Of a DNA stretch of 47,377 bases, positions 3,140 through 38,954 are shown one piece after another (the first letter of the stretch is position 1; each line of letters opens with the position of its first letter). Source of the DNA: Kiritimatiellia bacterium (GTDB taxonomy: Bacteria > Verrucomicrobiota > Kiritimatiellia > RZYC01). The stretch lies in assembly GCA_028708815.1 (NCBI GenBank), contig JAQVYB010000010.1, positions 1 through 47,377 of the forward strand, given 5' to 3'. Position numbers and translations under genes: made by a program. The notes beneath the pieces were generated by a model. It saw nothing but the letters and a program-made list of their open reading frames with translations. It had not been told where the DNA came from and did no database searches.

Positions 3140-5173
3140 TTATCCAATGTATATCCCCACGTCCTCTTCTGTCCCGTTGTCCATCGCGTTGCGCAGCGCT
3201 TGGTATAGTTCCGTTTTCTTGATTGGCTTGCCCACCAGCCCGTCCATGCCCGCCGCCAACATCTCCCCGCGCGCCTCCTCATCGGTTTTCGCCGACAGTG
3301 CGGTGATGAGTATTCGATGATCCGCACCTTCTTCAAAATTCAATTCCTCTTCCAGTCGACGAATTTCACGCGCGGCCTCCAGACCATCCATTTTCGGCAT
3401 AACGATATCCATGAGAATGATGGAAAACGGGTTGTCATCCTGCCCCTGCACATATGCCTCGACCGCTCTCAATCCATCTTCCACTATTTCGTAATCACAG
3501 CCCCAGTCACTCAGGCAGCGCTTCAGATATTCCTGGTTCACCCGGTTGTCTTCCGCCACCAAGACGCGCAATCCCCTTATCGCTCCGGCATCGGCCTCCT
3601 CTATTTTCTGTTCAACCGGGGCGTCAACAGCCTCTCTCGGGATTTGCTCTTCCAGCATCGGTAGCGAGACCTTTATGGCGGTGCCCTTGTCCTCAACACT
3701 TTCCACGTCGATATGGCCATGGTGCGATTCCACCAGCCGGTGCGTAATCGCCATGCCCAGCCCGGTCCCCACTTCGCCAGCCGTTCCTTTGCGCGAAGTT
3801 TTTGAATACTCATCAAACAGATGCGGAAGCATTTTTTTGGGTATGCCGATTCCCGTATCGCGCACCGTCACCTCGACGCTGCCGTTTTGGTCCGGCCTTA
3901 TCTCTACCGAAACCCGGCCCCCGGACGGCGTGAATTTTATCGCATTGGATATCAGGTTGTTGAAAATGCGGCGCAAGGCATTATCGTTGCCGTTGATGAT
4001 AATTCCGTCGGGTCCATCCAGCGTCAGTTCCACCTGTTTTGGTCCGGCTGTATGTTGCAGTGTGACTCGGCAGGATTGTATTATCTCCGTCAAATCCACC
4101 GGCTCAAACGCCATGTTGGACTCATCCGATTGCGTACGCCCGAGATCGAGAATATCGTTAATCAGGCTCATCAAATACTCGCCTGCGCCTCGGATATGAG
4201 TCAGCATTTCCCGCTGCGTGTTCGTTGTATCGGGGGCTTCTCTCAAGATCTCTGTAAGCCCCAGCATGCCGCTGAGCGGCGAACGTAAATCATGCGAACA
4301 GACCGCCAGAAATTTATCCTTGAGCTGATTCAGGCGTTTCAGCTCCGCAATATTGGCTTTGAGTTGAGTGTTGAGCAACTGACGGCGCATGTGCACCTCG
4401 AGGCGTGCCATCATCTCTTCGCGGACAAACGGTTTGTGGATATAGTCCGTGGCCCCCGCCTGAAAGATGTGCAGCACCTTCTGCGCCTGGTCATTCGAAC
4501 TCAAAAAGATGATCGGCAGGTCCACCAGTTTCAATTCTTTGCGAATCGTCCTGCAATACACATCGCCGTTCATTTTCGGCATTTGCAGGTCGGTGACCAC
4601 CACATCAATTTCATCCCGATGCGCCTTAAGCTGTTCCAGTGCTTCTGCGCCATCCTCCGCCTCGAAAATCGACACCCCGAAAGGTTCCAGACAGGACTTG
4701 ATCAGATAGCGGATGATCATGCTGTCGTCCACCACCTGGACGCCCAACTCATGAAATTCACAGGAAGGACGCAGGATTTTGTCCGTCAGCTTTTTCAGGG
4801 AAGCACGCACATCCGATTTCAGAATAAATTCGGTGGCACCCAATTCAAAACCGCGCAAGCGGTCTTTTTCGGTATCCTGCGAGGTCACGAAAACCATCGG
4901 CACCCACTGATTGTTCATCTCCCGAAATTCCGCCTGCTTTTCTGACGACCGAATTTCCGCCAGTGTTTCAAAGCCGGACCAACCCTTCATCTGCACATCC
5001 AGGAGGACCAGGCGGATGTTCGGAACCGAATTCAGCTTGTGGATCGCGTCGGGGCCGCTCTCCGCCTCCACCGGATCATACCCCAGCTTCTTTAAAGCAG
5101 TCGCCAGGCCCCAGCGTATGAACGAACTGTCATCCACCAACAGAATTTTCGGATGTTCCTCAGCCGGATTCAT
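3140..5173 (-). CDS. Soluble hybrid histidine kinase with REC-REC-HisKA-HATPase-REC architecture
   Basis: 677 aa with no membrane segment, so it should act in the cytoplasm. Two receiver domains come first (about 8-130 and 145-262, phospho-acceptor candidates Asp59 and Asp195). A short coiled linker leads to HisKA with His294 in CSHDLRSPLSG. The HATPase (about 390-508) has the N box NLISNAIKF and G boxes DTGIGIP and GTGLGMAI. A third receiver (about 535-665) carries Asp589 in LMDIVMPKMDG and the conserved Lys in GKPIKK. In the first receiver the usual Lys-Pro is Lys-Ser. With no sensor domain visible, input probably comes through phosphorylation of the N-terminal receivers by another kinase, an inference from this architecture. 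The start at 5173 fits the receiver-domain N terminus. No partner gene lies next to it. Confidence 0.9.
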   Translation of the reverse strand: MNPAEEHPKILLVDDSSFIRWGLATALKKLGYDPVEAESGPDAIHKLNSVPNIRLVLLDVQMKGWSGFETLAEIRSSEKQAEFREMNNQWVPMVFVTSQDTEKDRLRGFELGATEFILKSDVRASLKKLTDKILRPSCEFHELGVQVVDDSMIIRYLIKSCLEPFGVSIFEAEDGAEALEQLKAHRDEIDVVVTDLQMPKMNGDVYCRTIRKELKLVDLPIIFLSSNDQAQKVLHIFQAGATDYIHKPFVREEMMARLEVHMRRQLLNTQLKANIAELKRLNQLKDKFLAVCSHDLRSPLSGMLGLTEILREAPDTTNTQREMLTHIRGAGEYLMSLINDILDLGRTQSDESNMAFEPVDLTEIIQSCRVTLQHTAGPKQVELTLDGPDGIIINGNDNALRRIFNNLISNAIKFTPSGGRVSVEIRPDQNGSVEVTVRDTGIGIPKKMLPHLFDEYSKTSRKGTAGEVGTGLGMAITHRLVESHHGHIDVESVEDKGTAIKVSLPMLEEQIPREAVDAPVEQKIEEADAGAIRGLRVLVAEDNRVNQEYLKRCLSDWGCDYEIVEDGLRAVEAYVQGQDDNPFSIILMDIVMPKMDGLEAAREIRRLEEELNFEEGADHRILITALSAKTDEEARGEMLAAGMDGLVGKPIKKTELYQALRNAMDNGTEEDVGIYIG

Positions 5174-9723: not shown

Positions 9724-9740
9724 AACTGAAGGAGTGAATG

Positions 9741-11828
9741 ATGAGTAACATACAAACGTTGGTGGATCAGTTCGGCGAGAATGTATTTAGTTTGAAGGTC
9801 ATGCGGGAATATCTTTCGGAGGCGGCCTTCAAGTCGCTCTCCTCCACGATTCATACCGGGGTCACGATTGATCCGGGAATCGCGAATGAAGTGGCCGAGG
9901 CAATGAAACTTTGGGCGATGGAACGCGGGGCCACCCACTATACGCACTGGTTTCAGCCGCTGACCGGCGCCACCGCGGAAAAACACGACTCCTTTCTGGT
10001 ACCGGATGGGGAAGGCGGCGCGCTGGCCAAATTTTCGGGCGAGGAGTTGATTCAAGGCGAGCCCGATGCCTCGAGCTTTCCCTCGGGCGGGTTGCGCGCC
10101 ACCTTTGAGGCACGCGGCTACACGGGCTGGGATCCGACGAGTCCGGCCTTCATCAAGTATGATGCCGCAGGCGCCACGCTGTGTGTTCCTACGGTTTTCT
10201 GCGGCTACCATGGGGAGGCGCTGGATAAAAAGACGCCACTGCTGCGTTCGATGAACGCTTTGAATAAAGAAATTTGCCGTCTGGGTAAGCTGTTCGGGAT
10301 TGACTGCAATGGCAGCCGTGCGGTGGCCACACTCGGTGCCGAACAGGAATATTTCCTGATCGACAAGGAGTTTTACGAAATGCGGCTGGATCTGCTGCAG
10401 TGCGGCCGCACCCTGTTTGGGCGTTCTCCGGCCAAACATCAGCAGCTCGAAGATCACTATTTCGGCGCAATCAAGAGCCGTGTGCTGGCCTTCATGGCGG
10501 ATCTGGACAAAGAGCTCTGGCGTCTCGGCGTCCCGGCCCGTACGCGTCACAACGAGGTGTGTCCGGCACAGTTTGAAATTGCCCCGATGTTTGAGGAACT
10601 CAATCTGGCGGTGGATCACAATATGCTCACCATGGAAATCATGCGCAAGGTGGCTGAGGAACACGGCTTCTGCTGCCTGCTGCACGAAAAACCGTTCGCA
10701 GGCGTGAATGGTTCCGGCAAGCACAACAATTGGTCGGTCTGCGGGCCGGACGGCAAGAACTGGCTCAGCCCCGGCGATAATCCGCACGAGAACGCGAAGT
10801 TCATGACGATGATTTGCGCGCTGATGAAGGCCGTGGATGTCCATGCCGACTTGTTGCGCGCCACCGTGGCGACCGCCGGCAATGACCACCGCCTGGGCGC
10901 CAACGAGGCGCCTCCGGCGATTATCTCCATCTTCCTGGGCGATCAGCTCACCGACATCATCGAGCAGATCGAACAGGGTGGGGCCAGCAGCTCGAAGCGG
11001 GGCGGACTCATTGAGCTGGGGGTGGATTCCATTCCGCACCTTCCGCGGGGCAATACCGATCGCAACCGCACCTCGCCCTTTGCCTTCACCGGCAACAAGT
11101 TTGAGTTTCGTGCGGTGGGGTCGGAGCAGAATCCTTCGGCGGCGAACGTGGTGCTCAATACGATTGTGGCGGAGGTGCTTGACGAAATCTGCACGAAGAT
11201 GGAAAAGGCCGTGGCTGCAGGCGAAGAGTTTAACGCGGCGTTGCAGAGTATTTTGGGCGACATTGTCAAGAAGCACAAACGGGTGCTGTTCAACGGCGAT
11301 GGGTATACGGCCGACTGGGTGGCCGAAGCGGAACGCCGCGGATTGCCGAATCTCCGCAAAACGCCGGAAGCATTGGCGGTATACCGCACGGAAAAGGCAC
11401 GCAGTCTGTTCAGCAAGTATCAGGTGTTGAGCGAACGCGAACTGGAATCCCGCTACGAAGTCTACATCGAAGGCTATCAGCGTGTGGTACTGATTGAGGC
11501 CCGCTGTGCGGTGACGATCGCCAAGACGCTGATTGCGCCCGCCTGCATCAGTGCGCAGTCGGAGTTGGCCGATGGCATCAAGGCGGTGAAGGAAGTCAGC
11601 GGCGGATCGGTCTCGGGCGTACTCTCCCTGCTGGGGGACATCTGCACGCAGACGGAAGTCATGCTGGCCGCCATCAAAACGCTGGAAGCAAAAATAGAGG
11701 AAGGGGATATCCCCGGGATGATCGAAGCGACCCAGGCGTTGCGCGTGCCGGCCGATGAGCTTGAAGGTCTGATTCCGGATTACCTCTGGCCGCTGCCCTC
11801 GTATGCTGAAATGCTGTTTATGATGTAA
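9741..11828 (+). CDS. glnN: Type III glutamine synthetase (GlnN)
   Basis: 695 aa, the size of GS III (about 700) and not of GS I (about 450). It makes glutamine from glutamate, ammonia and ATP in the cytoplasm. The family signature [14 protein letters not shown] is at about residue 320. [14 protein letters not shown] and AEQEYFLID with FEIAPMFEE supply the catalytic carboxylates. Two ATGs (9738 and 9741) follow AAGGAG at 9729-9734. The second has the better 6-base spacing. The gene has its own sigma-54 promoter and a terminator-like leader hairpin, so control is probably by nitrogen status. GOGAT genes follow on the same strand. Confidence 0.96.
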
Positions 11829-11944: not shown

Positions 11945-14900
11945 ATGCAGCCGGTTGAACAACGCAATGAAGAGGATTTGGCTCACCAGCGATTGGCCCG
12001 CTTCCCGAGGAAGCAGGGCCTGTATGATCCGAACAATGAACACGATGCCTGCGGCGTCGGTTTCCTCGTCAACATTCATGGCGAAAAATCGCACGCCATC
12101 CTCGATAAAAGCATCGTTGTGCTGAAAAATCTGCTGCACCGGGGCGCCACGGGCGCCGACCCGGAAACGGGAGATGGCGTTGGACTGCTCTTTCAGATTC
12201 CGGACCGTTTTTTCCGCCGGGTCTGCCTGGAACGAAACATCGAACTGCCGCTGCCGGATGCGTATGGTGTCGGGATGTTTTTTCTTCCGCGGAATGCGGA
12301 GGCCCGCCCGCGGTGCATGAGCGAAGTCGAAAACAATGTGGGCCGGGAGGGCCTTCAGTTTCTGGGGTGGCGCGAGGTGCCGGTGAACCCGGACGCGCTG
12401 GGTCGAAAGGCCCGCGCCGAAATGCCGCATATTGCTCAATGTTTTGTCGCCGGGCTCTCCGGCGATGCGCTCGAACGGAAACTTTTTGTCGTCCGCAAAC
12501 AATGCGAAAAGCGCTTGGTCTCCCGACTGGGGGCGAACGATCTTTTTTATGTGCCCAGTTTTTCGGCACGAACGATTGTCTACAAGGGTCTGATGCTGCC
12601 GAAGCAGCTTGCGGCGTTTTATTCGGACCTGAACGATCCGGAACTGGAGTCGGCGCTGGTGGTGGTGCATCAGCGTTACAGCACCAACACCTTTCCCTCG
12701 TGGGCGCTGGCGCAGCCCTTCCGCCAGCTCGCGCACAACGGAGAAATCAATACCCTGCGCGGAAACCGAAACTGGATTGCCTCGCGCGAGAACAATTTGA
12801 AGTCGGAGGTGCTGGGCGATGATATTCTGAAGGTGACGCCCATCATTGAAGAAGGCGGCAGTGATTCCGCCGCGTTGGATAATGCGCTTGAGCTGCTCTG
12901 CAAGGCTGGTCGGTCGCTTGTGCATTCGATGGCGATGCTCGTGCCGCAGGCCTGGGGGGTGAAATATCCCATCGGTCCCGATCTGCGCGGATTCTTCGAG
13001 TATCACGCCGGTCTGATGGAGCCGTGGGACGGCCCCGCCGCGCTGGCATATACCGACGGACGGTTCATTGGCGCTGTGCTGGATCGCAACGGCCTTCGCC
13101 CTGCACGCTACACCGTCACACACGACGGATTCATGGTATTCGCCTCCGAGGCCGGTGTACTGGATATTCCCCCGGCGGAGGTGCGCGAAAAGGGCGCGTT
13201 ACGTCCGGGTGAAATGATCCTGGTGGATACCGCCGGCAACCGGCTGATGAAGGATGTGGAAATCAAGAATCGGCTGGCTCGGCAGCAGCCCTACCGCCGT
13301 TGGGTGGATGAAAACCGTATTGATATTCACGGCTTCTTCGGCGCTGTGGGAACCGTCTGCGCCGATGCCGGGAAACTGCGTTTTCGCGAAAAGCTTTTCG
13401 GCTATAGCAGAGAGGATTTGAACGTGATTCTCGGGCCCATGGCCGTGGCCGGACACGAGCCGATCGGCTCCATGGGCGCCGATCAGCCGCTTGCCGTGCT
13501 CTCCGAAAAACCGCAGTTGCTGTACTGGTATTTCAAACAGATATTTGCGCAGGTAACCAATCCGCCGGTTGATCCCTACCGCGAAGAGTTGGTGATGTCG
13601 CTGATGACCTTTCTGGGCAATACGGACGATATTCTGCGCGAAAGCCCGCAGCATGCCCGCCTGGTGAAACTCAAACATCCGATTCTGTCGAACGACGACC
13701 TGCAACGTATCCGCGAACTTCCGCACGAGGATTTCCGCAGTACCACCATGATCATGCAGTTTCCTCGGGGCGGCAGTGGGCGCGACCTCGAGGATGCCCT
13801 GGACGGGCTGTGCCGCAAGGCGGAACAGGCCGTACAGAACGGCTTCCGCATTTTGGTGTTGAGCGATAAAGAGGTGGATGAAGCTCACGCACCGATTCCG
13901 GCGTTGCTGGCGGTGGCGGCGGTGAACCGCTATCTGATCAGCAGGGGTCTGCGCACCCGCACGGGCCTGCTCGTGGAAACGGGAGAAGCACGCGAGGTGA
14001 TGCACATCGCCCTGCTGCTCGGTTACGGCGCCTCGGCGGTCAATCCCTGGCTGGCCTATGACATCATTGCCGACCTGGCGGTGAAAAAACAGTTGCCGCA
14101 GGAAGTGCCGGTGACCCGCGCCATCGAAAACTATATCAACGCCCTGCGCAAGGGTCTGCTGAAAATCATGTCGAAAATGGGTATTTCCACCCTGCGAAGC
14201 TATCGAAATGCACAGGTGTTCGAGGCGGTCGGACTCAAGCAGGACGTGATTCGGCGCTATTTCGAGGGCACTCCGTCGCGCGTGGAAGGCATCGGGATGG
14301 ATGGTATTGCCCGTGAGATTGGCGAACGTTGTGAAGCGGCGGATCGAAAGCTGCTGCGTGTGGACCTGCTGCCTTCGGGTGGGCATTACAGTTACCGTCA
14401 GGATGGCGAGCGCCATCTCTGGACCCCGCAGACGATCACCCTGTTGCAGCAGGCCACCCGCGAAAACAATGTGGAAAAGTACCGGCGGTATGCCGAGCTG
14501 ATCAATGATCAGTCGAGACGGCAAAGCACACTGCGCGGACTCTTTCGCTTCAAAAAAACCACGCCCGTTCCTCTCGACGAGGTCGAGCCGGCCGACGCCA
14601 TCATGAAACGCTTTGTCACCGGCGCGATGTCGTTCGGATCCATCAGTCGTGAGGCGCATGAGACGCTCGCGATCGCCATGAACCGCATCGGCGGTATGAG
14701 CAACAGCGGCGAAGGCGGCGAGGATGCCGCCCGGTACCAGCTCCTGCCCAATGGCGACTCGCGGTGCAGCGCCATCAAGCAGGTGGCCAGCGGACGCTTC
14801 GGCGTGACGGCGGAATATCTGGTCAACGCCCGTGATCTGCAAATCAAAATCGCCCAGGGCGCGAAACCCGGCGAAGGCGGGCAGTTGCCGGGGCACAAGG

Positions 14901-16513
14901 TGAACGAGGAAATCGCCCGTGTACGTCATTCCACCCCCGGCGTTACGTTGATCTCGCCGCCGCCTCATCATGATATTTACTCCATCGAAGACATCGCGCA
15001 GTTGATTTACGACCTGCACTGCGCCAACCGCGAAGCACGCGTCTCCGTGAAACTCGTTTCGGAAATCGGCGTGGGGACAGTCGCGGCGGGTGTGGCCAAA
15101 GGCAAGTCCGACATGATTCTGATCAGCGGCTGTGACGGCGGCACCGGCGCCTCGCCGCTGTCCTCCATCAAACACGCGGGCGTATCCTGGGAGCTGGGCC
15201 TGAGCGAAACGCAGCAGACGTTGGTGCTGAATCATCTGCGCAACCGGGTACGGCTGCAAGTGGATGGCCAGCTCAAAACCGGGCGCGATGTGGTGATCGG
15301 TGCGCTGCTCGGAGCCGAGGAGTTCGGGTTTGCCACGGCCCCGCTGGTCATCTGCGGCTGCGTGATGATGCGCGATTGCCATCGCAACACCTGCCCGGTG
15401 GGCGTGGCCACGCAGGATCCGCGGCTGCGCAAATGCTATCGCGGCGATCCGCAGTATCTCATTAACTTTTTCCGCTTCATCGCCGAAGAAGTGCGTACCT
15501 GCATGGCGCAACTCGGCATCCGTACCCTGGATGAACTGGTCGGACGAAGCGATCTGCTCGAAATGAATGACGCCATCGGATTCTGGAAGGCGAAAGGGGT
15601 GGATCTTTCGCGCATACTCTATCGACCCGAGGCGCAGCCCGACGAGGTGCGCTGCATGCAGAAACAGGAGCACGGTGTGGAACAGGCGCTGGACCTTGAG
15701 CTGATGGAGCGCGTCATCCCCGCGCTCGAACAGGGCGAGCGCGTGGAATTGGATGTGCCGGTTCGTAATTATCACCGAACGGTCGGAGCGATTATTTCCT
15801 CCGAAGTGGCCCGGCGTTACGGGCAGAAAGGGCTGCCCGAAGATTCCATTATCCTGCGCTTCAGCGGATCCGCCGGACAGAGCTTCGGAGCCTTTGCTTC
15901 CAAAGGCATGACCCTGATTCTCGAAGGGGAGGCCAACGACTTCGTGGGCAAGGGGCTTTCCGGCGGCAAGATCATTGTTCATCCTGCGAAAGAGGCGGGG
16001 TTTGAGCCTTCCGAGAGTATCATTGCCGGCAACGTACTGCTTTACGGAGCGACGTCGGGCGAGCTGTATCTCAACGGGCGTGCCGGCGAACGCTTCGGTA
16101 TTCGCAACAGCGGCGCCAAGGCCGTGGTGGAAGGCGTGGGCGACCACGGCTGTGAATACATGACCGGCGGGCGCGTGGTGATTCTCGGCCCCACGGGCGT
16201 GAACTTCGGCGCGGGGATGAGCGGAGGTCTCGCCTATGTGTATGACGAAACCGGCCTCTTTGATGAACGGTGCAATCTCGATATGATCGACCTGGAGCTG
16301 GTCGCCGGTCGGGCCGAGGAACGGGAACTTAAAACGCTGATTGAAAAACACCTTGAATATACCGGGAGCCCGAAGGCCAAGGCCATTCTCGACAACTGGG
16401 AAACCGCTCTGGGCTATTTCGTGAAGGTGTTCCCGATGGAATATAAGAAAGTACTCGGCATGCTCAGCCGGGAAGATGAAGCGACGAAGCGCGTGGAGGT
16501 GGTCAATGACTAA
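11945..16513 (+). CDS. gltB: Glutamate synthase large (alpha) subunit
   Basis: 1522 aa, full length. It carries the class II amidotransferase domain with catalytic Cys36 in DACGVGF after a 35-residue propeptide, a central domain, the FMN-binding synthase domain (GEGGEDAARY, PHHDIYSIEDIAQLIYDL) and the 3Fe-4S motif at Cys1139, Cys1145 and Cys1150, then the C-terminal glycine-rich beta-helix. It releases ammonia from glutamine and channels it to 2-oxoglutarate. The start has AGGAGAT 7 bases before it. It overlaps gltD by 8 bases, so the two are translationally coupled. It lies 116 bases after the glutamine synthetase gene. Confidence 0.97.
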   Translation: MQPVEQRNEEDLAHQRLARFPRKQGLYDPNNEHDACGVGFLVNIHGEKSHAILDKSIVVLKNLLHRGATGADPETGDGVGLLFQIPDRFFRRVCLERNIELPLPDAYGVGMFFLPRNAEARPRCMSEVENNVGREGLQFLGWREVPVNPDALGRKARAEMPHIAQCFVAGLSGDALERKLFVVRKQCEKRLVSRLGANDLFYVPSFSARTIVYKGLMLPKQLAAFYSDLNDPELESALVVVHQRYSTNTFPSWALAQPFRQLAHNGEINTLRGNRNWIASRENNLKSEVLGDDILKVTPIIEEGGSDSAALDNALELLCKAGRSLVHSMAMLVPQAWGVKYPIGPDLRGFFEYHAGLMEPWDGPAALAYTDGRFIGAVLDRNGLRPARYTVTHDGFMVFASEAGVLDIPPAEVREKGALRPGEMILVDTAGNRLMKDVEIKNRLARQQPYRRWVDENRIDIHGFFGAVGTVCADAGKLRFREKLFGYSREDLNVILGPMAVAGHEPIGSMGADQPLAVLSEKPQLLYWYFKQIFAQVTNPPVDPYREELVMSLMTFLGNTDDILRESPQHARLVKLKHPILSNDDLQRIRELPHEDFRSTTMIMQFPRGGSGRDLEDALDGLCRKAEQAVQNGFRILVLSDKEVDEAHAPIPALLAVAAVNRYLISRGLRTRTGLLVETGEAREVMHIALLLGYGASAVNPWLAYDIIADLAVKKQLPQEVPVTRAIENYINALRKGLLKIMSKMGISTLRSYRNAQVFEAVGLKQDVIRRYFEGTPSRVEGIGMDGIAREIGERCEAADRKLLRVDLLPSGGHYSYRQDGERHLWTPQTITLLQQATRENNVEKYRRYAELINDQSRRQSTLRGLFRFKKTTPVPLDEVEPADAIMKRFVTGAMSFGSISREAHETLAIAMNRIGGMSNSGEGGEDAARYQLLPNGDSRCSAIKQVASGRFGVTAEYLVNARDLQIKIAQGAKPGEGGQLPGHKVNEEIARVRHSTPGVTLISPPPHHDIYSIEDIAQLIYDLHCANREARVSVKLVSEIGVGTVAAGVAKGKSDMILISGCDGGTGASPLSSIKHAGVSWELGLSETQQTLVLNHLRNRVRLQVDGQLKTGRDVVIGALLGAEEFGFATAPLVICGCVMMRDCHRNTCPVGVATQDPRLRKCYRGDPQYLINFFRFIAEEVRTCMAQLGIRTLDELVGRSDLLEMNDAIGFWKAKGVDLSRILYRPEAQPDEVRCMQKQEHGVEQALDLELMERVIPALEQGERVELDVPVRNYHRTVGAIISSEVARRYGQKGLPEDSIILRFSGSAGQSFGAFASKGMTLILEGEANDFVGKGLSGGKIIVHPAKEAGFEPSESIIAGNVLLYGATSGELYLNGRAGERFGIRNSGAKAVVEGVGDHGCEYMTGGRVVILGPTGVNFGAGMSGGLAYVYDETGLFDERCNLDMIDLELVAGRAEERELKTLIEKHLEYTGSPKAKAILDNWETALGYFVKVFPMEYKKVLGMLSREDEATKRVEVVND

Positions 16514-17957
16514 GCAACTGGGTTTTCTGGAAGAGCGCAAAGAAGCGGGGTACCGCCCGGTGGGCATACGCCTGCTGGATTTTGAACCGGTGGAACAGGA
16601 CCTCACGCATGAGCAGGTTCGCGAACAAACGGCACGCTGCATGGAATGCGGCACGCCGTTCTGTCACGGCTACGGCTGCCCACTCTCGAATGCGATTCCC
16701 GAGTGCAACGAGCTGGTGTATCAGGGGCGCTGGTCCGACGCACTCGAACTCCTGCTCGCCACCAATCCGTTCCCCGAATTCACGGGGCGGATTTGTCCCG
16801 CCCCGTGCGAGACCTCGTGTGTGGCCGGACTCGGCGGCGAGGCGGTGACGATTCGGCAAATGGAGCGTGCGGTGATGGATTACGGCTATGACAACGGCCT
16901 GCTCGGGATGCCTCCCTCCATGCGCAGGGACGAGCTTGTGGCGGTCATCGGTTCGGGGCCTGCCGGTTTGGCCGCCGCCGAAATGCTGAACCGGGCCGGC
17001 TATCGGGTCACCGTGTATGATGAAGCCAAACGACCCGGCGGTATCCTGCGCTACGGCATTCCGAACTTCAAACTCGATAAGCAGGTCGTGGATCGGCGCA
17101 TCCGGCTCATGGAACAGGAAGGAATCGCTTTTGAATGCGGTGTGCGGGTCGGCGAGGATGTGTCCTATCACTATCTGAAAGACCGTTATGATGCGATCTG
17201 CCTATGCTGCGGATCACGTGCGCCACGCGACATGAAGGTGCCCGGACGTGAAAACAAGGGCATTCATTTTGCCATGGATTTTCTGATGCAGCAGAATCGA
17301 CGCGATGACGGGGAGGAGATTCCGCCGGAGCAGGAAATTTCGGCGGCGGGTAAGCACGTGGTGGTGATCGGCGGCGGCGATACCGGGTCGGACTGCCTGG
17401 GCACCTCGCTCCGGCAGGGTGCCGCGAGTGTGATGCAGTTGGAAATCATGCCCCGGCCGCCCGCTGAACGGGCGGAGGACAATCCCTGGCCCGAATGGCC
17501 GCGCACCAACCGCGAATCCAGCAGCCACAAGGAAGGCTGGGATCGCCGTTGGTGCGTGAACACCCGTCAGGTCCGGGGGAAAGAAGGGCAAGTCACCGGC
17601 CTGCAATGTGTGGAGGTGGAGTGGGTCAAAGAGAACGGACGCTTCCAGATGGTGGAAAAGAAGGGCTCGGAATTTGAGTTGGAGGCTGATCTCGTCCTGT
17701 TGGCCATGGGGTTTGTCGGCCCCGGCGAAAACAAACTCGCCGATGTCCTGGGCCTGACCAAAGATGCACGTGGCAACATTCAGGTCAATGCCAATCATCA
17801 AACCAGCGTGCCGGATCTCTTTGCCGCAGGTGATATGGTGAGCGGGCAATCTCTGGTCGTTCGCGCCATTGCCGACGGCATGGAAACCGCGAAAGGTATT
17901 CAGCGTGTTCTGGAGCAGAAGGCGGGCGACGTCCCTTCAAGCCCCGCATCCCCGTAA
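16506..17957 (+). CDS. gltD: Glutamate synthase small (beta) subunit
   Basis: 483 aa. The N-terminal Cys motifs (CMECGTPFCHGYGC and CPAPCETSC) bind the iron-sulfur clusters of the GltD/DPYD family. An FAD Rossmann motif VIGSGPAGLAAAEML and an NAD(P)H motif VIGGGDTGSDCLGTS follow, then the FAD-closing AAGDMVSGQSLVVRAI. It feeds electrons from NAD(P)H to GltB. The ATG at 16506 lies inside the end of gltB. An upstream in-frame ATG at 16476 would add residues not found in the family. Confidence 0.97.
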   Translation: MTKQLGFLEERKEAGYRPVGIRLLDFEPVEQDLTHEQVREQTARCMECGTPFCHGYGCPLSNAIPECNELVYQGRWSDALELLLATNPFPEFTGRICPAPCETSCVAGLGGEAVTIRQMERAVMDYGYDNGLLGMPPSMRRDELVAVIGSGPAGLAAAEMLNRAGYRVTVYDEAKRPGGILRYGIPNFKLDKQVVDRRIRLMEQEGIAFECGVRVGEDVSYHYLKDRYDAICLCCGSRAPRDMKVPGRENKGIHFAMDFLMQQNRRDDGEEIPPEQEISAAGKHVVVIGGGDTGSDCLGTSLRQGAASVMQLEIMPRPPAERAEDNPWPEWPRTNRESSSHKEGWDRRWCVNTRQVRGKEGQVTGLQCVEVEWVKENGRFQMVEKKGSEFELEADLVLLAMGFVGPGENKLADVLGLTKDARGNIQVNANHQTSVPDLFAAGDMVSGQSLVVRAIADGMETAKGIQRVLEQKAGDVPSSPASP

Positions 17958-18072
17958 TGTTCGGAAGAAATCTCGCCGCGTAATATTTATGGGCTGATTG
18001 AATTGCTCTGGCCGTTGTGGTACATCACCCCCCTGTTGAACATCATATCGTGTGCGAGCACAGGAGGCGGAC

Positions 18073-20055
18073 GTGGCGGATTCGATGCAGAAAGGCTTGA
18101 CGGTACATATCCCATTTCGGCGCAAATGCTCGTTGATCTGGATGTACGCGAAGGAGCGATTGGCCCGTCAGGTGCGTGCGGTGGCGTTCATCACCGCTTA
18201 TTTGGCTGTATTTCAATTGGTTGTGTTGCGCGCGCCCATTGAGGATTTTGCTCATATCGCGCTGGGTATTCTTGCCGTGGTGTGCGGTTTGGCTTTTTTC
18301 ATGGAAGGGCTTTTTCTGGCAATTATGCCGCTGGGTGAGCGGTGCGGTTTGCGCTTGCCGGCGCGGGCCGGGCTGGGCGTGTTGGTGGTCTTTTCCGTTA
18401 TTCTTGGAATTACGGCGACCTTCGCGGAGCCGGCGATCGGATTTCTGAAGGCTCAGGGAAGTGCTACGCTGCCGTGGCGGACGCCGCTGTTGTATTGGTT
18501 GCTGAATGCGGGGGCCTCGTGGTTGGTGGGCATGGTGGCCGTGGGGGTCGGGCTGGCCGTGGTGGCGGGCGTGTTTCGCGCGATGAAGGCGTGGAGTCTC
18601 AAGCCGTTTCTCTTTATCGCGATCCCTCTGCTGTTGGGCCTTTCTTGGTGGGCCTCCCGCGATCTGCGCTCGGCGTCGATTATTGGGTTGGCGTGGGACT
18701 CGGGGGGTGTGACTACGGGACCGGTGACGGTGCCTTTGGTGATTGCGCTGGGGTTGGGCGTCTCGCGTATCGCGGGGCGGGGCGATGAGACTTCGGGTGG
18801 TCTCGGCGTGGTGACGTTCGCTTCGGCACTGCCGGTGATTATGGTGCTGCTGCTGGGGGTGTTGTTGGCGCCGCACTTCCCAATGCCCGGGACGATGGAG
18901 GAGTTCTTCTCGCCGGAGCGGCAGGCATTCTCCGAACAGGTCGCGGGCGGGGAGGATGAGCTGCGGGCCCTGGCGGCACGCGAGATGACGCCGGAACAGG
19001 TGGCGCAACGGTTCGGGCCCGTGCAGGAGGCCCCCTTGTCGCGTCCGCATCAACGGGTTCAGGTGCCTCATTCGGTCATGCGGGCGCTGTTGATCAATGC
19101 CTTCAAGGCCATTTTGCCGTTAGCATTTGTGCTGCTTTTTGTATTGTTGGTGGTGGTACGCGATCGTCTGCCCCATGCGGATGAGGTGGCGCTGGGGCTG
19201 GTGTTCAGCATTATCGGCATGTTGCTGTTCAGCTACGGTATGGACCGGGGTCTTTCGAGTTTGGGCAATCAATCGGGGCGTGCTCTTCCGCGTGCGTGGG
19301 AGGTGACGGAACGCCCGGATAAGGAAGTGCTTTATCAGAACATTCAGGAGCCGTTGCTGATTCGTGCGGCGCGTCCGGACGGTTCGGTGGCGGAGTATCT
19401 TCCGATGGCGGCGCAAAGTGGGCCGCGCTTTGTTCCGTTTCACCGGGATCGGTATGATGTGACGAAGGGGGAATACCGGTATGTTCCGGAGGTGCAGCCG
19501 GTGGCGGGAGACGAGGCGTTTTGGGGTTACGTGTTGGTGCTGGTTTTTGTGTTTGTGATGGGTGTGGGCGCGACGATGGCGGAGCCTTCGCTGAATGCGC
19601 TGGGGGTTACGCTTGAGGAAGTGACGACGGGAACCTATAAGCGTTCGTTCCTGATTTGTACGGTGGCGGTGGGGGTTGGCTCGGGGATGGCGCTCGGCTT
19701 TGGGCGTATTCTCTTTGCCTGGCCGTTGGTGCCGATGCTGACGGGAACCTATCTGACGGCACTGGTGCTGACGTGGATTTCCACGGAGGATATTACCACG
19801 ATTGCGTGGGACAGCGCCGGCGTCACCACCGGACCCATCACGGTGCCGCTGGTGATTGCCGCAGGCCTGGGCATCGGCCAGCGGGCGGGCGTGGCGGAGG
19901 CCTTCGGGGTGGTGAGTATGGCGTCGGTGATGCCGATTATTTCCGTGCTGCTTTCCGGGTTTATCATTTCCGCCCGACGAAGCCGGCTGGACCGCGATTA
20001 TTCGGCGGGCCAGGCGGAAGCCCTGCCGCCGAAGAACCAGGAGGTGCAATCATGA
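18073..20055 (+). CDS. Tandem DUF1538 membrane protein (putative PII-linked permease)
   Basis: 660 aa with two homologous halves of roughly 300 residues, each with several membrane helices and the DUF1538 core: WDSGGVTTGPVTVPL from residue 208 and WDSAGVTTGPITVPL from residue 579. Each half also has a matching ATxAEPAI/ATMAEPSL segment. The internal duplication suggests an inverted- or tandem-repeat transporter. DUF1538 proteins are commonly discussed as permeases next to PII-like genes, but the substrate is not established. The GTG at 18073 is chosen because AGGAGG lies 5 bases before it. ATG 18085 is too far. It overlaps the next gene by 4 bases (ATGA). Ammonium, an amino acid or an ion are all open as cargo. 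Confidence 0.88.
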   Translation: MADSMQKGLTVHIPFRRKCSLIWMYAKERLARQVRAVAFITAYLAVFQLVVLRAPIEDFAHIALGILAVVCGLAFFMEGLFLAIMPLGERCGLRLPARAGLGVLVVFSVILGITATFAEPAIGFLKAQGSATLPWRTPLLYWLLNAGASWLVGMVAVGVGLAVVAGVFRAMKAWSLKPFLFIAIPLLLGLSWWASRDLRSASIIGLAWDSGGVTTGPVTVPLVIALGLGVSRIAGRGDETSGGLGVVTFASALPVIMVLLLGVLLAPHFPMPGTMEEFFSPERQAFSEQVAGGEDELRALAAREMTPEQVAQRFGPVQEAPLSRPHQRVQVPHSVMRALLINAFKAILPLAFVLLFVLLVVVRDRLPHADEVALGLVFSIIGMLLFSYGMDRGLSSLGNQSGRALPRAWEVTERPDKEVLYQNIQEPLLIRAARPDGSVAEYLPMAAQSGPRFVPFHRDRYDVTKGEYRYVPEVQPVAGDEAFWGYVLVLVFVFVMGVGATMAEPSLNALGVTLEEVTTGTYKRSFLICTVAVGVGSGMALGFGRILFAWPLVPMLTGTYLTALVLTWISTEDITTIAWDSAGVTTGPITVPLVIAAGLGIGQRAGVAEAFGVVSMASVMPIISVLLSGFIISARRSRLDRDYSAGQAEALPPKNQEVQS

Positions 20056-21203
20056 AGCGGCTTGAGGCTTCCAGAATTACCTGCATCGCCGATATACGGC
20101 TTTCAGAACGTATCGAAGCGGAGGTTGATCGGATGGGGCTGTTGGAAACCTATTCCGAGCGCGGCAAGCAGGTGGCGCTGAAGGCGCGGGCGGCCTGGTT
20201 GCCGTTTGGACGCCGCTCCTCCATGGTGGAATCGCCCTGCGAAGTCTTTCGATTTTATGTTCCGCGTGAATATGAACGGGCGGCCATGGTGCGGTTGGCG
20301 GGCGCGGCGGACCTGTTTCTTCCCGGACGCGGAAGCGTCTGTGCGCAGGATGCGGTGCTGATGGGGGAGGATCTTCGCTTTTGGGAGGAGTCGAATCTGT
20401 GTTCGGCCCCGCCGGATTGGGTGCTCGAGAGCCGTTTGCAGACTGCACCGTATGATCTGATCTTCTGCATTGTACAGCGCGGGCGCGGCGGAGAGCTCGC
20501 GCGCACCATGCTCGAGATGGGACTGGGTGCGCCGGTGATCAGTTATGGCGAAGGGATGGGGCTTCGCGACCGGCTTGGCCTGCTGCGCATTACCATCCCG
20601 CAGGAAAAGGAACTCTTTCGCTTTCTGGCACCCTCCGCCGATTCCGATTTGGTGGTGGATGTGGCGGTGCGGACGGCGGGTCTGAATCAGGCAGGTCAGG
20701 GATTTTTGTCGCGGACGCCTGTTCGTGCTTTGGCGGTCAATACGCAGATGAATCTGGATCGCCGCAGGCATGTGGCTTCCATGGAGCAGGTGATCAGCAC
20801 ACTGGATCAGTTGCGCGGTTCAACGGATTGGCGCCGCATCTCGGCTGCTGCCCGCCGCCATCATGCCGCCCGTCCGCCGGAGCGGGAGGGTATGGTACGC
20901 TTTTCACTGGTCTGCGAAAGCGGAACCGGTGGTCCGACTGTTCAGGCGGCCATGGAGGTCGGCGCCCGAGGGGCGACGCTGTCGCGCCTCTCCCGGCGTA
21001 TGAAGGAGTCCCTTGACGGTCCCGGTCCGGAAGAGGCGGCGATGGCGTCCTGTGCCCGGGAATGCTGCGAGTTGATTGTTACGCCTGCCGTGGCCCGGCG
21101 ACTCGAAGAAACCGTGATTAAAAGCGACTTGTTTGAAAAGCCCGCGAACGGGTTTGTTGAAATAGCCCCTGTCCATGACGCTGTCACCTACGCCGGGGGT
21201 TGA
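20052..21203 (+). CDS. Three-domain PII-like protein (single-chain PII pseudo-trimer)
   Basis: 383 aa. Three segments each repeat the beta-alpha-beta, long loop, beta-alpha-beta layout of PII signal proteins. They run about 7-104 (RITCIADIRLSERIEAEVDR to FRFYVPREYERAAMV), 133-228 (YDLIFCIVQRGRGGELARTM to GLLRITIPQEKELFRFL) and 281-380 (VRFSLVCESGTGG to CELIVTPAVARRLEETV). PII proteins are normally homotrimers of about 112 aa, so one chain may form the whole trimer. The loops lack the classic uridylylated Tyr motif. It overlaps the DUF1538 gene by 4 bases, so it probably gates or senses for that membrane protein. The domain assignment rests on pattern, not on a search. The middle and last domains are the clearest. 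Confidence 0.75.
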   Translation: MKRLEASRITCIADIRLSERIEAEVDRMGLLETYSERGKQVALKARAAWLPFGRRSSMVESPCEVFRFYVPREYERAAMVRLAGAADLFLPGRGSVCAQDAVLMGEDLRFWEESNLCSAPPDWVLESRLQTAPYDLIFCIVQRGRGGELARTMLEMGLGAPVISYGEGMGLRDRLGLLRITIPQEKELFRFLAPSADSDLVVDVAVRTAGLNQAGQGFLSRTPVRALAVNTQMNLDRRRHVASMEQVISTLDQLRGSTDWRRISAAARRHHAARPPEREGMVRFSLVCESGTGGPTVQAAMEVGARGATLSRLSRRMKESLDGPGPEEAAMASCARECCELIVTPAVARRLEETVIKSDLFEKPANGFVEIAPVHDAVTYAGG

Positions 21204-21257: not shown

Positions 21258-22877
21258 TTACGGTTGGGACGTTCTGCGGAAGGGCTCCGCTTTTTTTCCG
21301 AAGGGGATGCCGAGTTTTTTCATGCGGGCGCGGAGAGTGCCATGATTGATTTGCAGTAATTCGGCGGCGCCGCCCGGTCCTTCGATGCGTCCATTGGTCC
21401 ATTCCAGGACGCGGCGGATGTGCTCTGCGGTCACGTGGTTCAGCGCGAGTAATTCCCGGGGCGGACGACTCTCGGCGGCGGGCGCAGCAGCGCCGGATTG
21501 ACCGAGTGGCGGAATCTGCAGGTCGCCGCCCTGACACAAAATCAGCGCGCGTTCGATAATGTTCTGGAGCTCGCGGACATTGCCCGGCCAGGCATAGGCT
21601 GTGAGCCGATCCATCACGCCGGCATCCAGACGCGGTGTGGGCAGATTCATTTCGCGGCATTTGCGTTCGATGAAAAAATGCACCAGCGCATTGATGTCCT
21701 GCTTGCGCTCGCGCAGCGGAGGCAGGTGAATCGGGAAGACGTTCAGACGGAACCAGAGATCTTCACGAAAGCGGCCTTCCGTCACGCGCTGCTGAAGGTT
21801 TTGATGCGTGGCGGCAATCACGCGCACATCCGCCTTCATCATTTTTGATCCGCCCAGACGCTCGAATTCCTTTTCCTGCAACACGCGCAGCAGTTTCACC
21901 TGTGCTTCCTGGGTGAGTTCGGCGATTTCATCCAGAAAGATGGTTCCGCCTTCCGCGCGCTCGAAGCGTCCGCGCTTGGTATGTACCGCGCCGGTGAACG
22001 CGCCCTTTTCGTGTCCGAAGAGTTCGCTGTCCAGCAGCGATTCCGGAATCGCGCCGCACTGCACGCGGATGAAGGGTTGATTGCGGCGCGGCGAGGACAT
22101 GTGAATGGCGTTGGCGATCACTTCCTTGCCGGTGCCCGTTGCGCCCAGCAGCAGAACCGGGCTGGAGGTCGGGGCGACGTGGTAGACCAGCTCCATCACG
22201 CTGCGCAGTCCGAAGTCGGCCCCGATCACCTGATTGCCGGAGATGCGTTCCAGGTCGCGGTAGGCGGCCCGGTTATCTTCTGCGAGCAGTTCCTTCAGAC
22301 GCACCATGTGCTGATAACGCCGTGCGTTGCTCAGCGCAATCGCCAGGGGATCTTTTACGCTTTTCAGCAGTTCCGCGTGATGCGTGGTGAAGCGGTTTTC
22401 ACCCTTGGCCCAGATCGTCAGCATGCCTATTTCATCTTCGTTGATGGTCAGAAAGAGATGCAGGTAGGAATGATTCTGCAAGTGCGGGAAGTGTTTTTTT
22501 ACGATGTGGTAATGCGGATCGTCGTCTGAAAAATAATTTCCGATTTCGGTCTCCGAGTGCCGTATTTTTTCTTCCACGTTTTTTTTGAGCTGCTCAATTT
22601 CGGAGGGTTCAAAGACAATAAAGGGCGTATCGTGCAGGCTGTTGCGATCAATGATGTGTTCCGGATCCGCGAGCACGGGATCGGTCACGGCATAGAGGGC
22701 CAGCTCTTCTTCCACGAAGTAATACATCCCGGCATGATCCATGGGAATGTGGTTTCGCAGATAAGCAACGGTAGCCCTCAGCGCCTCGTTGATATCGAGA
22801 CTGCTGCAAATGCGCAGGGTGACCTCGCGGAAGAATTCATTCCGCTCCAGAGGAGTCATGTCGGTGTCATAGCTCAT
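21258..22877 (-). CDS. Sigma-54-dependent activator, GAF-AAA+-Fis (NifA/FhlA-like)
   Basis: 539 aa. An N-terminal GAF-type sensor (about 15-190) leads to an AAA+ domain with Walker A GATGTGKE at 245-252, the sigma-54 contact loop GAFTGA at 292-297 and Walker B GGTIFLDE at 310-317. A Fis-type helix-turn-helix is at the end (about 480-525, GGAAELLQINHGTLRARMKKLG). It remodels RNA polymerase-sigma-54. It diverges from an efflux operon that has a sigma-54 promoter, with palindromes between them, so that operon is the likely target. The GAF ligand is unknown. The start has only a weak ribosome-binding site. ATG 22859 is an alternative. Confidence 0.93.
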   Translation of the reverse strand: MSYDTDMTPLERNEFFREVTLRICSSLDINEALRATVAYLRNHIPMDHAGMYYFVEEELALYAVTDPVLADPEHIIDRNSLHDTPFIVFEPSEIEQLKKNVEEKIRHSETEIGNYFSDDDPHYHIVKKHFPHLQNHSYLHLFLTINEDEIGMLTIWAKGENRFTTHHAELLKSVKDPLAIALSNARRYQHMVRLKELLAEDNRAAYRDLERISGNQVIGADFGLRSVMELVYHVAPTSSPVLLLGATGTGKEVIANAIHMSSPRRNQPFIRVQCGAIPESLLDSELFGHEKGAFTGAVHTKRGRFERAEGGTIFLDEIAELTQEAQVKLLRVLQEKEFERLGGSKMMKADVRVIAATHQNLQQRVTEGRFREDLWFRLNVFPIHLPPLRERKQDINALVHFFIERKCREMNLPTPRLDAGVMDRLTAYAWPGNVRELQNIIERALILCQGGDLQIPPLGQSGAAAPAAESRPPRELLALNHVTAEHIRRVLEWTNGRIEGPGGAAELLQINHGTLRARMKKLGIPFGKKAEPFRRTSQP

Positions 22878-36085: not shown

Positions 36086-36113
36086 TTGTAATGTTCCGGC
36101 CAACCCGTAAAAT
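36086..36113 (+). promoter_or_regulatory. Candidate promoter of the molybdoenzyme operon
   Basis: TTGTAA and TAAAAT are separated by 16 bases, 34 bases before the start codon. The match is weak to moderate. Confidence 0.3.
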
Positions 36114-36147
36114 AACCGCCGGTGTTTCTTATCTTTGGAGAGTATTC

Positions 36148-38460
36148 ATGACCCAGCAATCCGATGGCTCTTTCCGCATCATCGGGCGCAGTTTGACGCG
36201 TTCCGATGCCGAAGACAAAGTGCGCGGCAAAGCGCAGTATCTTGATGATCTGACTATGCCCGGCGTATGGTATGCCGATGTCGTCCGTGCGCCCGTGCCC
36301 TGCGGAAAGCTGCTCGGTCTGCATTTTGATGAGTCGTTTGATTGGACGCAGGTGGTGACGGTGAAGCCCGAGGATATTCCGGGTGAGAACATCGTGGATA
36401 TGACCGGTCTGGACATGCCCTTTCTCGCGTATGACAGGATTCAGTATCAGGGAGAGCCGCTGGCATTGATTGCCGCGCCAAGCAAGGCGCTGGCGCGCGA
36501 GGCCGTGAACCATGTCCGTGCCGAGGTTGAGGAGCTGCCCGCCATCCAAAGTATTCAGGAGATGGTGGAGCGGCACAAGACGGGCCTGGCCGATTCGCTG
36601 CGCCTGTTGGAAAAGAAAGAGATTCGCAGGGGAGATGCCGAGGGCGTGTTGGCGGGTGCAGGGAAGGTGCTGGAAGGGGAATACTGGACGGGCTTTCAGG
36701 AGCAGCTGTATATTGAGCCGCAGGGCATGGCGGCCGAGCCGATGGAAAGTGGAGGAGTCTATATCCGGGGCAGCATTCAGTGTCCCTATTATGTGGCCCC
36801 GGAATTGATGAAGGTCTTGAATCTTCCTCTGGAAAAAATCCGCGTGGAACAGACGGTGACCGGCGGTGCCTTCGGCGGAAAAGAGGAGTTTCCCACGCTG
36901 CCCGGCGGCTATTGCGCCCTCCTGGCGTTGAAGGCGGGACGGCCCGTCAAGATGGTGTATGATCGTCACGAAGATATTCTGTTCACCACGAAGCGCCATC
37001 CATCGTGGACCCGCTACCGCACGGCGCTGGCCGAGGATGGCCGCATTGCCGCCATGGAAGTGGATATGATTCTGGATGGCGGGGCGTATACGACGATCAG
37101 TCCGGTGGTGTTGTATCGCGGCATCCTGCACGCCGCGCTGGGATACCGCTGTGAGAACGTGACGGTGCGCGGTTTCGTTTATGCCTCCAACAGTTTTCCG
37201 TGTGGGGCTTTTCGCGGATTCGGCGCGCCGCAGGCCTACTGGGGGCTCGAGTCGCATGTGGAGGATCTTGCGGAACAGGCCGGCCTTGGACCGGACGAAT
37301 TCCGCCTGAAAAATTGTTTGCAGGAGGGTGATATCACGCCGACGGGGCAGCATCTGCTCACCAGTGTCGGTACGCCCGCCGTTTTGAAGGAAGCGCTCCG
37401 CCGGTCGGACTTCCACGCGAAGCTGGCCCGTTGCGATCAGGGTCGGCCCGGCGCGAAAAGCTGGTATGGGATCGGGGTTTCCTTTTTTGCGCACGGCGCG
37501 GGATTCACCGGTGATGGCGAAGCGAAATTCGGCAGCCGCGCGGCGATGGAACTGGGGCGTTTGAGTGATGGACGTCCGGGCCTAACCTTATACGCCAGTT
37601 CCACGGAAATGGGGCAGGGCGCCAAAACGGTCCTCGCGCAGATGGCCGCCGAAGGGGCCGGCCTTCCCTTTGATCGTGTGTTTTATCCCCTGCCCGATAC
37701 CCGGGTGGTCCCCGACTCGGGGCCGACCGTGGCCTCGCGCACCACGATGGTGGTGGGTAATATTCTGTATCATGCCGGGCATAAAATGAAGTGCCTGCTC
37801 GAGGAGGCTGCTGCGAAGCATTGTTTCGGAGGGGCGTCGGTACGGCTCGAAGGCGGGCGGTTTTTTGCGGAAGGCGTCGAGGCGCGTCCGTTCGAGGAGG
37901 TGGCGGAGGTGCTGCTGGCCCAGGGTGAACCGCTGCGGACGGAGCATCAGTTTGCCTTGCCGCCGCACATCCGCTGGGATCAGGAACGTTTTGTGGGCGA
38001 TGCCTATCCGGCATACTCCTGGGCCTGCAATGTGGCGGAGGTGGAGGTGGACCCGTTGACGCTGCAGATTCACCTGCGCAAAATCACGGCGGTGTACGAC
38101 GTGGGCCGCATCATCAATCCCACGCTGGCCATCGGCCAGTTGCAGGGCGGCCTCGTGCAGACGATCGGCTACGCCCTCATGGAAACCATGCAGGTGCGCA
38201 AGGGCCTCTACGATGCCAACCGCCTTCAGACCTACATCATTCCGACCGCACTGGATGTGCCGGAAATGGACCTGCAGTTTTTGGAATATTCGTGCGACGA
38301 ACTCGCGCCGGGAGCCAAGGGCCTTGGTGAAATTACGATGAACGGCCTGGCACCGGCCATTGGCAATGCTGTACGCCGGGCCACCGGGTGCCGCCTGTGC
38401 GCCATCCCGATGCGCCCCGAAGATCTTTATGCAACACTGTATCAGGGAGCGAAAGATTAA
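36148..38460 (+). CDS. Xanthine dehydrogenase-type molybdenum-binding subunit
   Basis: 770 aa. It has the a/b hammerhead (GKAQYLDDLTMPGVWYADVV) and the two molybdopterin-binding domains. GAFRGFGAPQAYWGLE is the xanthine-dehydrogenase-type cofactor loop, unlike the AYRGAGRPE of CO dehydrogenases. GGAFGGKEE and the catalytic Glu in KGLGEITMNG are present. It hydroxylates purines or related N-heterocycles. The ATG at 36148 has GGAGAG 6 bases upstream, while earlier in-frame ATGs do not. The order Mo, 2Fe-2S, FAD with overlapping ends makes one operon. Substrate is inferred as purine-like only. Confidence 0.93.
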   Translation: MTQQSDGSFRIIGRSLTRSDAEDKVRGKAQYLDDLTMPGVWYADVVRAPVPCGKLLGLHFDESFDWTQVVTVKPEDIPGENIVDMTGLDMPFLAYDRIQYQGEPLALIAAPSKALAREAVNHVRAEVEELPAIQSIQEMVERHKTGLADSLRLLEKKEIRRGDAEGVLAGAGKVLEGEYWTGFQEQLYIEPQGMAAEPMESGGVYIRGSIQCPYYVAPELMKVLNLPLEKIRVEQTVTGGAFGGKEEFPTLPGGYCALLALKAGRPVKMVYDRHEDILFTTKRHPSWTRYRTALAEDGRIAAMEVDMILDGGAYTTISPVVLYRGILHAALGYRCENVTVRGFVYASNSFPCGAFRGFGAPQAYWGLESHVEDLAEQAGLGPDEFRLKNCLQEGDITPTGQHLLTSVGTPAVLKEALRRSDFHAKLARCDQGRPGAKSWYGIGVSFFAHGAGFTGDGEAKFGSRAAMELGRLSDGRPGLTLYASSTEMGQGAKTVLAQMAAEGAGLPFDRVFYPLPDTRVVPDSGPTVASRTTMVVGNILYHAGHKMKCLLEEAAAKHCFGGASVRLEGGRFFAEGVEARPFEEVAEVLLAQGEPLRTEHQFALPPHIRWDQERFVGDAYPAYSWACNVAEVEVDPLTLQIHLRKITAVYDVGRIINPTLAIGQLQGGLVQTIGYALMETMQVRKGLYDANRLQTYIIPTALDVPEMDLQFLEYSCDELAPGAKGLGEITMNGLAPAIGNAVRRATGCRLCAIPMRPEDLYATLYQGAKD

Positions 38461-38954
38461 TGAATACCATCACGAGAACATGGAACGTCAATGAGGAGGA
38501 ACGAACCGTAACCTTCGGCGGGCTGCATCGCCTGCTGGATGTGCTTCGGGAGGATCTTGGGCTGACGGGCGTCAAGGAGGGATGCGGCGAGGGCGAGTGT
38601 GGCGCCTGTACGGTGTTGATCAACGGCGACCCCGTCACCTCCTGCATTGTGTCTGCCGTGCAGGTGCCCGAGGGCGCAGAGATTCTCACGGTGGAAGGAC
38701 TCGAGAAGCTGGAGTTGGGGCGCCGCATTCAGAAGGCCTACATGGAGAAGGGTTCGGTGCAGTGCGGTTTCTGTACGCCGGGCATGCTGATGTCCTCGTA
38801 TGCGTTGTTGAGTCGCAACAGTCGTCCGACCGAGCAGGAGATTCGCGAGGCGCACGCGGGGAATCTCTGCCGTTGTACCGGCTACGAAAAAATTGTGGAC
38901 GCCGTCCGTGCGGTGGCGGATGAATTGGAACAAGGAACGCGGAGCACCGTATGA
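38460..38954 (+). CDS. Xanthine dehydrogenase-type 2Fe-2S subunit
   Basis: 164 aa. The ferredoxin cluster motif GCGEGECGACTVLINGDPV with a later Cys, and the helical-domain motifs CGFCTPGM and CRCTGYEKI, bind two 2Fe-2S clusters that pass electrons from molybdenum to FAD. The ATG overlaps the stop of the molybdenum subunit (TAATG) and its own stop overlaps the FAD gene start (ATGA). Confidence 0.95.
   Translation: MNTITRTWNVNEEERTVTFGGLHRLLDVLREDLGLTGVKEGCGEGECGACTVLINGDPVTSCIVSAVQVPEGAEILTVEGLEKLELGRRIQKAYMEKGSVQCGFCTPGMLMSSYALLSRNSRPTEQEIREAHAGNLCRCTGYEKIVDAVRAVADELEQGTRSTV

Follow-up and report, generated by a model that had tools for sequence, protein, structure and literature searches.

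A single-chain protein with three PII-like domains as the probable partner of a fused DUF1538 membrane protein in Kiritimatiellia

A protein with three PII-like domains in a single chain is encoded in the genome of a Kiritimatiellia bacterium (assembly GCA_028708815.1), and it is probably the dedicated partner of the fused UmpA-UmpB-type DUF1538 protein, a presumed antiporter, whose gene lies just upstream. Its position directly behind DUF1538 points to a built-in regulator of that membrane protein rather than a general nitrogen sensor. PII proteins are textbook homotrimers, and because their three sites are identical, the part played by any single site or T-loop is difficult to discern. The DNA analysed, referred to here as the window, is a stretch of 47,377 nucleotides (contig JAQVYB010000010.1), and its relevant features are collected in Table 1. 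The three-domain protein is a member of a real and widespread family, with about 80 relatives across Kiritimatiellota, Verrucomicrobiota, Spirochaetota, Riflebacteria, and others. Relatives from the same class provided the first alignment, and a profile-based scan then gave 67 loci from several phyla.

An initial annotation, made from the sequence alone, had proposed three PII-like units with limits at about residues 7-104, 133-228, and 281-380. The predicted structure agrees with these limits within a few residues. The AlphaFold2 model of the window protein, based on an alignment of 64 sequences (pLDDT 85.7, pTM 0.85), repeats the order E-H-E-E-H-E (βαββαβ) three times, over the residues given for the domains in Table 1, and thus contains three, and not fewer, ferredoxin-like PII folds. 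Confidence restricted to the individual domains would give a pTM of about 0.33 by our own estimate, so the mutual arrangement of the domains is also predicted confidently. Profiles of the three thirds matched each other over their full length in hhalign, with probabilities of 98.8, 97.7, and 93.9, while a control with reversed profiles reached at most 2.1. When the profile of the 64-sequence family was compared with the PDB, 39 sequences were found at E<=1, all of them PII/GlnK; domain 1 matched 6yc6 (E 1.1e-5), domain 2 matched MJ0059 (E 3e-4), and domain 3, the weakest of the three, matched GlnK2 (E 0.014). Foldseek also retrieved PII/GlnK structures at probability 1.00, with TM-scores (target) up to 0.72-0.73; for a second model, some longer matches of low TM-score to unrelated folds outrank them by E-value.

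It is important to note that standard annotation of the single sequence cannot yield this finding, since the window protein alone matched no model of Pfam or NCBIfam, even at E<=10. Its thirds had no match in Pfam, PF00543 included, at the same threshold, and the PF00543 comparison proposed in the initial annotation was positive only for the relatives, 17/64 of which match at E<=1 (best E 7.1e-12), several of them above the cut-off. With the single sequence, phmmer against the PDB gave only two matches, judged to be chance, and a search for related loci found none, an alignment profile being required. Matches to PF25293 (EMC1 propeller) at 0.004 were likewise taken as chance. Against a narrow set of canonical PII proteins, hhalign gave 78.5 for domain 1, 2.4 for domain 2, and 3.0 for domain 3; despite the low values, the PDB profile search and the Pfam matches of the relatives decided the identity of the domains. 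The protein therefore belongs to the PII-like superfamily by its βαββαβ topology and by the profile homology of each unit, and shares with GlnK/GlnB (PF00543) the fold of each third, the profile match, and alignable T-loop and B-loop positions. It falls outside P-II proper, however: the whole protein and its thirds miss the PF00543 gathering threshold, the window protein scoring nothing against this model; one chain of 383 aa with three unequal units replaces a homotrimer of 112-aa subunits; the T-loop of domain 2 lacks the uridylylated Tyr; and the ligand residues are incomplete, with Lys58 only in domain 2 and Gly87 only in domains 1 and 2.

Table 1. Features of the window and loci with two-domain chains
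Feature	Position	Strand	Description
Hybrid histidine kinase-like protein	3143-5173	-	three response-regulator receiver stretches
GS III	9738-11828	+	upstream of DUF1538
GOGAT subunits	11945-17957	+	upstream of DUF1538
DUF1538 membrane protein	18073..20055	+	fusion of a UmpA-like and a UmpB-like half; 4-nt overlap with the PII gene
Second DUF1538 half	19126-19962		insert of about 70 aa
GGAGG Shine-Dalgarno	20040-20044	+	inside the end of the DUF1538 gene
Three-domain PII-like protein gene	20052..21203	+	383 aa, ATG start
Domain 1 (aa 2-105)	20055..20366	+	PII-like; B-loop PGRGS kept
Domain 2 (aa 132-228)	20445..20735	+	conserved PII-like unit
Helical linker (about aa 236-276)	20757..20879	+	between domains 2 and 3; conserved pattern HAASMEQ...D.L.G.T.WR
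Domain 3 (aa 281-379)	20892..21188	+	degenerate PII-like unit
Sigma-54 activator with GAF domain	21258-22877	-	convergent with the PII gene
Xanthine dehydrogenase/CO dehydrogenase-type subunits	36091-39808	+	molybdopterin and FAD subunits
Two-domain loci	L174, L180, L181, L183, L197, L200-L213, L233		

The partner gene has an open reading frame that opens at 18052, and a GTG at 18073, behind AGGAGG (18062-18067), is its likelier start. The product matches PF07556 (E 1.5e-104) in two stretches that correspond to the two halves. In Halomonas, the DUF1538 pair UmpAB functions as a heterodimer and carries out Na+(Li+,K+)/H+ antiport (PMC5484666); the window protein scores under the NCBIfam equivalog cut-offs for UmpA (213 vs 490 bits) and UmpB (159 vs 500 bits), so antiport is here a presumed activity. 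The insert in its second half is present with most three-domain PII partners and absent in a Verrucomicrobiales/Planctomycete group (L081-L093). At the junction of the two genes (20040..20055), the stop and start codons overlap as ATGA and the GGAGG motif stands 7 nt ahead of the PII gene start, an arrangement that makes translational coupling probable.

The link to DUF1538, pointed out in the initial annotation together with the gene overlap, is supported by a near-invariant adjacency across phyla. Essentially all loci have DUF1538 directly upstream and in the same orientation, no other neighbour family recurs from phylum to phylum, and the ends of the two genes overlap or touch in nearly all loci. 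In the phylum of the window (388 genomes), DUF1538 was above the cut-off in 25 genomes, which include all 22 genomes bearing a relative; a PII-like gene adjoins it in 24 of these 25, and in the remaining genome the locus runs into a contig edge. This last locus (G170:C44:16310-19150, L236) encodes an extra-long DUF1538 with a partial extra half, with no PII gene before the contig end. In Spirochaetota (149 genomes), an adjacent PII-like gene accompanies DUF1538 in 26/26 genomes, which gives 50 of 51 for the two phyla together, and among 97 relatives of the class the same 13 genomes carry both genes. A 912-aa frame in L039 was rejected as a DUF1538-PII fusion, for the reading frames of the two genes differ and the long one lacks stops by chance. 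Borrelia BB0017, which combines a PII-like with a membrane domain, belongs to another family (DUF2179). Many relatives (L046-L064, among others) come from the sediment MAGs CSSed, T1Sed, T3Sed, and B1Sed, which we take to be from soda-lake sediments; such an origin fits the role of a Na+/H+ antiporter. Full-text searches in a collection of non-subscription papers brought up neither a link between DUF1538 and a P-II regulator nor any description of a PII pseudo-trimer.

The three domains are conserved to different degrees. Mean pairwise identity amounts to 47% in domain 2, 28% in domain 1, and 26% in domain 3. The most conserved stretch is the T-loop of domain 2, GxGxG(L/I)RDRLGLLRITIPxEKE, which in the window protein reads GEGMGLRDRLGLLRITIPQEKE (aa 166-187). 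Its invariance is partly ascertained, since the motif served as one search pattern in the locus scan; relatives retrieved without this pattern keep the T-loop too. Regarding the known ligand residues (Gln39, Lys58, Gly87, Lys90, Arg101, and Arg103; PMC8395244), Gln39 is absent from all three domains, while Lys90, Arg101, and Arg103 are missing from all three and also from the single-domain partners, so that any nucleotide must bind in a different manner. The 2-oxoglutarate lysine Lys58 is found in domain 2 in 68/68 members (Lys186 in the window protein) and also in the single-domain forms; domain 3 mostly has Arg in its place, and the residue is lost in domain 1, where the T-loop region is long and altered. 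The GxG of the B-loop (Gly87/Gly89) is kept in domains 1 and 2 (AGQGF, aa 214-218, in the latter), not in domain 3. This third domain retains GAT, the Thr29 equivalent, and Arg336-Glu337.

According to these features, two other roles for the protein can be weighed. The placement of the gene after GS III and GOGAT had been taken as a sign of nitrogen control, and a triple PII that reads 2-oxoglutarate/ATP and acts with these two enzymes, DUF1538 being incidental, would explain why they are encoded a short way upstream in the same orientation and why domain 2 keeps the lysine that binds 2-oxoglutarate in GlnK. Nonetheless, this neighbourhood occurs in the present genome only, among about 80 loci; a GltD-like match is nearby in only one other of 67 loci, and neither GS nor GOGAT was found within the stretch read in 12 loci of the window's class. 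The unique neighbourhood, the gap of 115 nt between GltD and the likely DUF1538 start, and the separate canonical PII that the source genome has on another contig make the placement weak evidence, and Gln39, Lys90, Arg101, and Arg103 are absent; a general nitrogen regulator is thus very improbable. Little more can be said for three distinct sensors, in which each inter-domain cleft would bind a different ligand and the protein would integrate them. The divergence of the three sites proposed in the initial annotation is real, given that the residues at ligand positions differ from domain to domain and that the domains form separate old clades. Its extension, that each cleft could sense something different, is countered by the loss of the B-loop and the T-loop base of domain 3 in essentially all 68 members, the loss of the T-loop base of domain 1, and the absence of the canonical phosphate-binding residues from all three domains; moreover, the highest rates of evolution are those of domains 1 and 3, which is what relaxed scaffold units would show. 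Such a triple sensor is therefore improbable. The loss of Lys90, Arg101, and Arg103 throughout makes a single functional cleft and loop, on domain 2, the likelier case. On the simplest reading of the residue patterns, only the loop of domain 2 and a cleft beside it, possibly completed by domain 3, would be functional, and the role of domains 1 and 3 would be mainly structural.

The PII chains linked to DUF1538 contain one, two or three domains, and this count tracks the architecture of the transporter, although the loci of this series are related and do not represent independent events. Single-domain PII proteins accompany separate or half-length UmpA/UmpB genes (L173, L193, L196, L237-L240), with one exception, which stands beside a fused transporter (L159, genome G038). 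A short fused DUF1538, spanning about 474-515 aa, goes with PII chains of two domains in a single frame, and three-domain chains occur always with a fused DUF1538, usually of about 590-690 aa (L229 and L230 being two shorter exceptions). Examples of the two-domain form, common in Spirochaetota, are L197:2219-2962 (247 aa), L201:2262-2933, and L183:807-1532; what appeared to be tandem PII genes in L112, L114, and L115 are in fact two-domain chains in one frame. Two genomes, G408 (L030/L197) and G411 (L047/L196), have two DUF1538-PII modules each, of different architecture, namely a three-domain form plus a one- or two-domain form. In the transporter tree, the partners of two-domain chains are united in a clade (98/96) that adjoins the separate-gene forms, while those of three-domain chains belong to another deep clade (100/100). 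It thus seems that fusion of the transporter and multiplication of the PII domain accompanied each other on two occasions. In the tree of single domains, canonical PII separates from all DUF1538-linked domains (100/99), domain 2 forms one group (91/91), and domain 3 another (100/74); for domain 1, two changes are required. The deep forks of this tree are weak because the alignment is short (106 columns); from the grouping of the domains, the triplication is old and was probably a single event. The two-domain chains group with the single-domain forms and are probably an independent multiplication.

The arrangement of the domains in space admits two readings. The confident model makes an intramolecular pseudo-trimer plausible. 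Alternatively, the protein could partner DUF1538 without any such trimer, as beads or as inter-chain (domain-swapped or higher) oligomers that offer one PII domain to each transporter half. Two-domain chains beside a fused, two-half DUF1538, which occur in many genomes of Spirochaetota and in some of Kiritimatiellota, would suit this arrangement, run counter to a simple rule of a one-chain trimer, and caution against taking three domains as a requirement; the most degenerate unit is, in addition, the third. This alternative is nevertheless rather unlikely, because a pTM of 0.85 over three domains of about 100 aa implies a confidently fixed mutual arrangement, and because the known PII and PII-like proteins are trimers. 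The intramolecular ring can also be placed in an evolutionary frame: it is conceivable, though we hold it only tentatively, that the number of domains per chain co-evolves with transporter fusion, giving an asymmetric one-chain PII ring, with one functional T-loop and one functional cleft, that gates a two-fold (pseudo-dimeric) rather than three-fold cation/proton antiporter.

Known systems suggest how a dedicated partner could act. PII-family T-loops enter the transporter in both GlnK-AmtB (PMC8352866) and SbtB-SbtA (PMC10710835), and T-loop gating of DUF1538 is proposed by analogy with them. The linkage of the PII gene to one transporter, a trait of transporter-plugging PII proteins such as GlnK with AmtB, is also present here. 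SbtB is likewise a PII-like protein encoded with a Na+-coupled transporter, the Na+/bicarbonate transporter SbtA on which it acts; in contrast, it forms a homotrimer of single-domain subunits and its transporter is trimeric, whereas a three-domain chain faces a two-half fused partner in the window. In the proposed mechanism, the three domains would close into an asymmetric PII-type ring at the cytoplasmic face of the antiporter, where one PII chain may bind one antiporter chain (1:1). Domain 2 would supply the working T-loop, which would bind or plug the transporter depending on whether the single well-preserved cleft near domain 2 is filled or vacated by a small ligand, perhaps a nucleotide or else an anion that Lys186 would hold. 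This cleft may be the one between domains 2 and 3, given the Thr29 equivalent retained in domain 3; for the most part, domains 1 and 3 would serve as scaffold. The effect would be an adjustment of cation/pH homeostasis to the metabolic state, not a control of nitrogen assimilation as such.

Closer relatives of the arrangement differ mainly in domain number. The Methylocystis rosea protein WP_124740562.1 occupies the same slot behind DUF1538, has a similar B-loop and a PEKE motif in strand 3, and has lost the same nucleotide residues, but it consists of one PII domain with separate UmpA and UmpB instead of three domains with a fused transporter. On plasmid pGW6_2 of this species (L193:2935-4726), umpA and umpB are joined by one "P-II family nitrogen regulator" gene in a block between IS66 transposase genes, which shows the DUF1538-PII module to be a unit; on this mobilizable plasmid, the block is possibly a mobile salt/pH-tolerance cassette. 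The two-domain chains (e.g., L197:2219-2962) are also multi-domain PII proteins directly behind a fused DUF1538, and differ by having two domains and by clustering with single-domain forms. Non-identical PII partners are thought to work together in NifI1/NifI2. These are, however, two separate genes that regulate nitrogenase, with no fused chain; their unusual oligomerization is mentioned in PMC8395244.

In a natural single-chain PII protein with three domains, each site can be changed alone. A cited review holds that PII regulation appears restricted to transporters able to act as trimers. A two-half fused antiporter accompanied by one, two or three PII domains per chain would be a natural test of this restriction, and the whole series beside one transporter family offers a ready test of PII symmetry versus that of its target. 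Furthermore, the widespread DUF1538/UmpAB family, whose regulation is described in no paper found, gains a probable regulator and hence a testable function.
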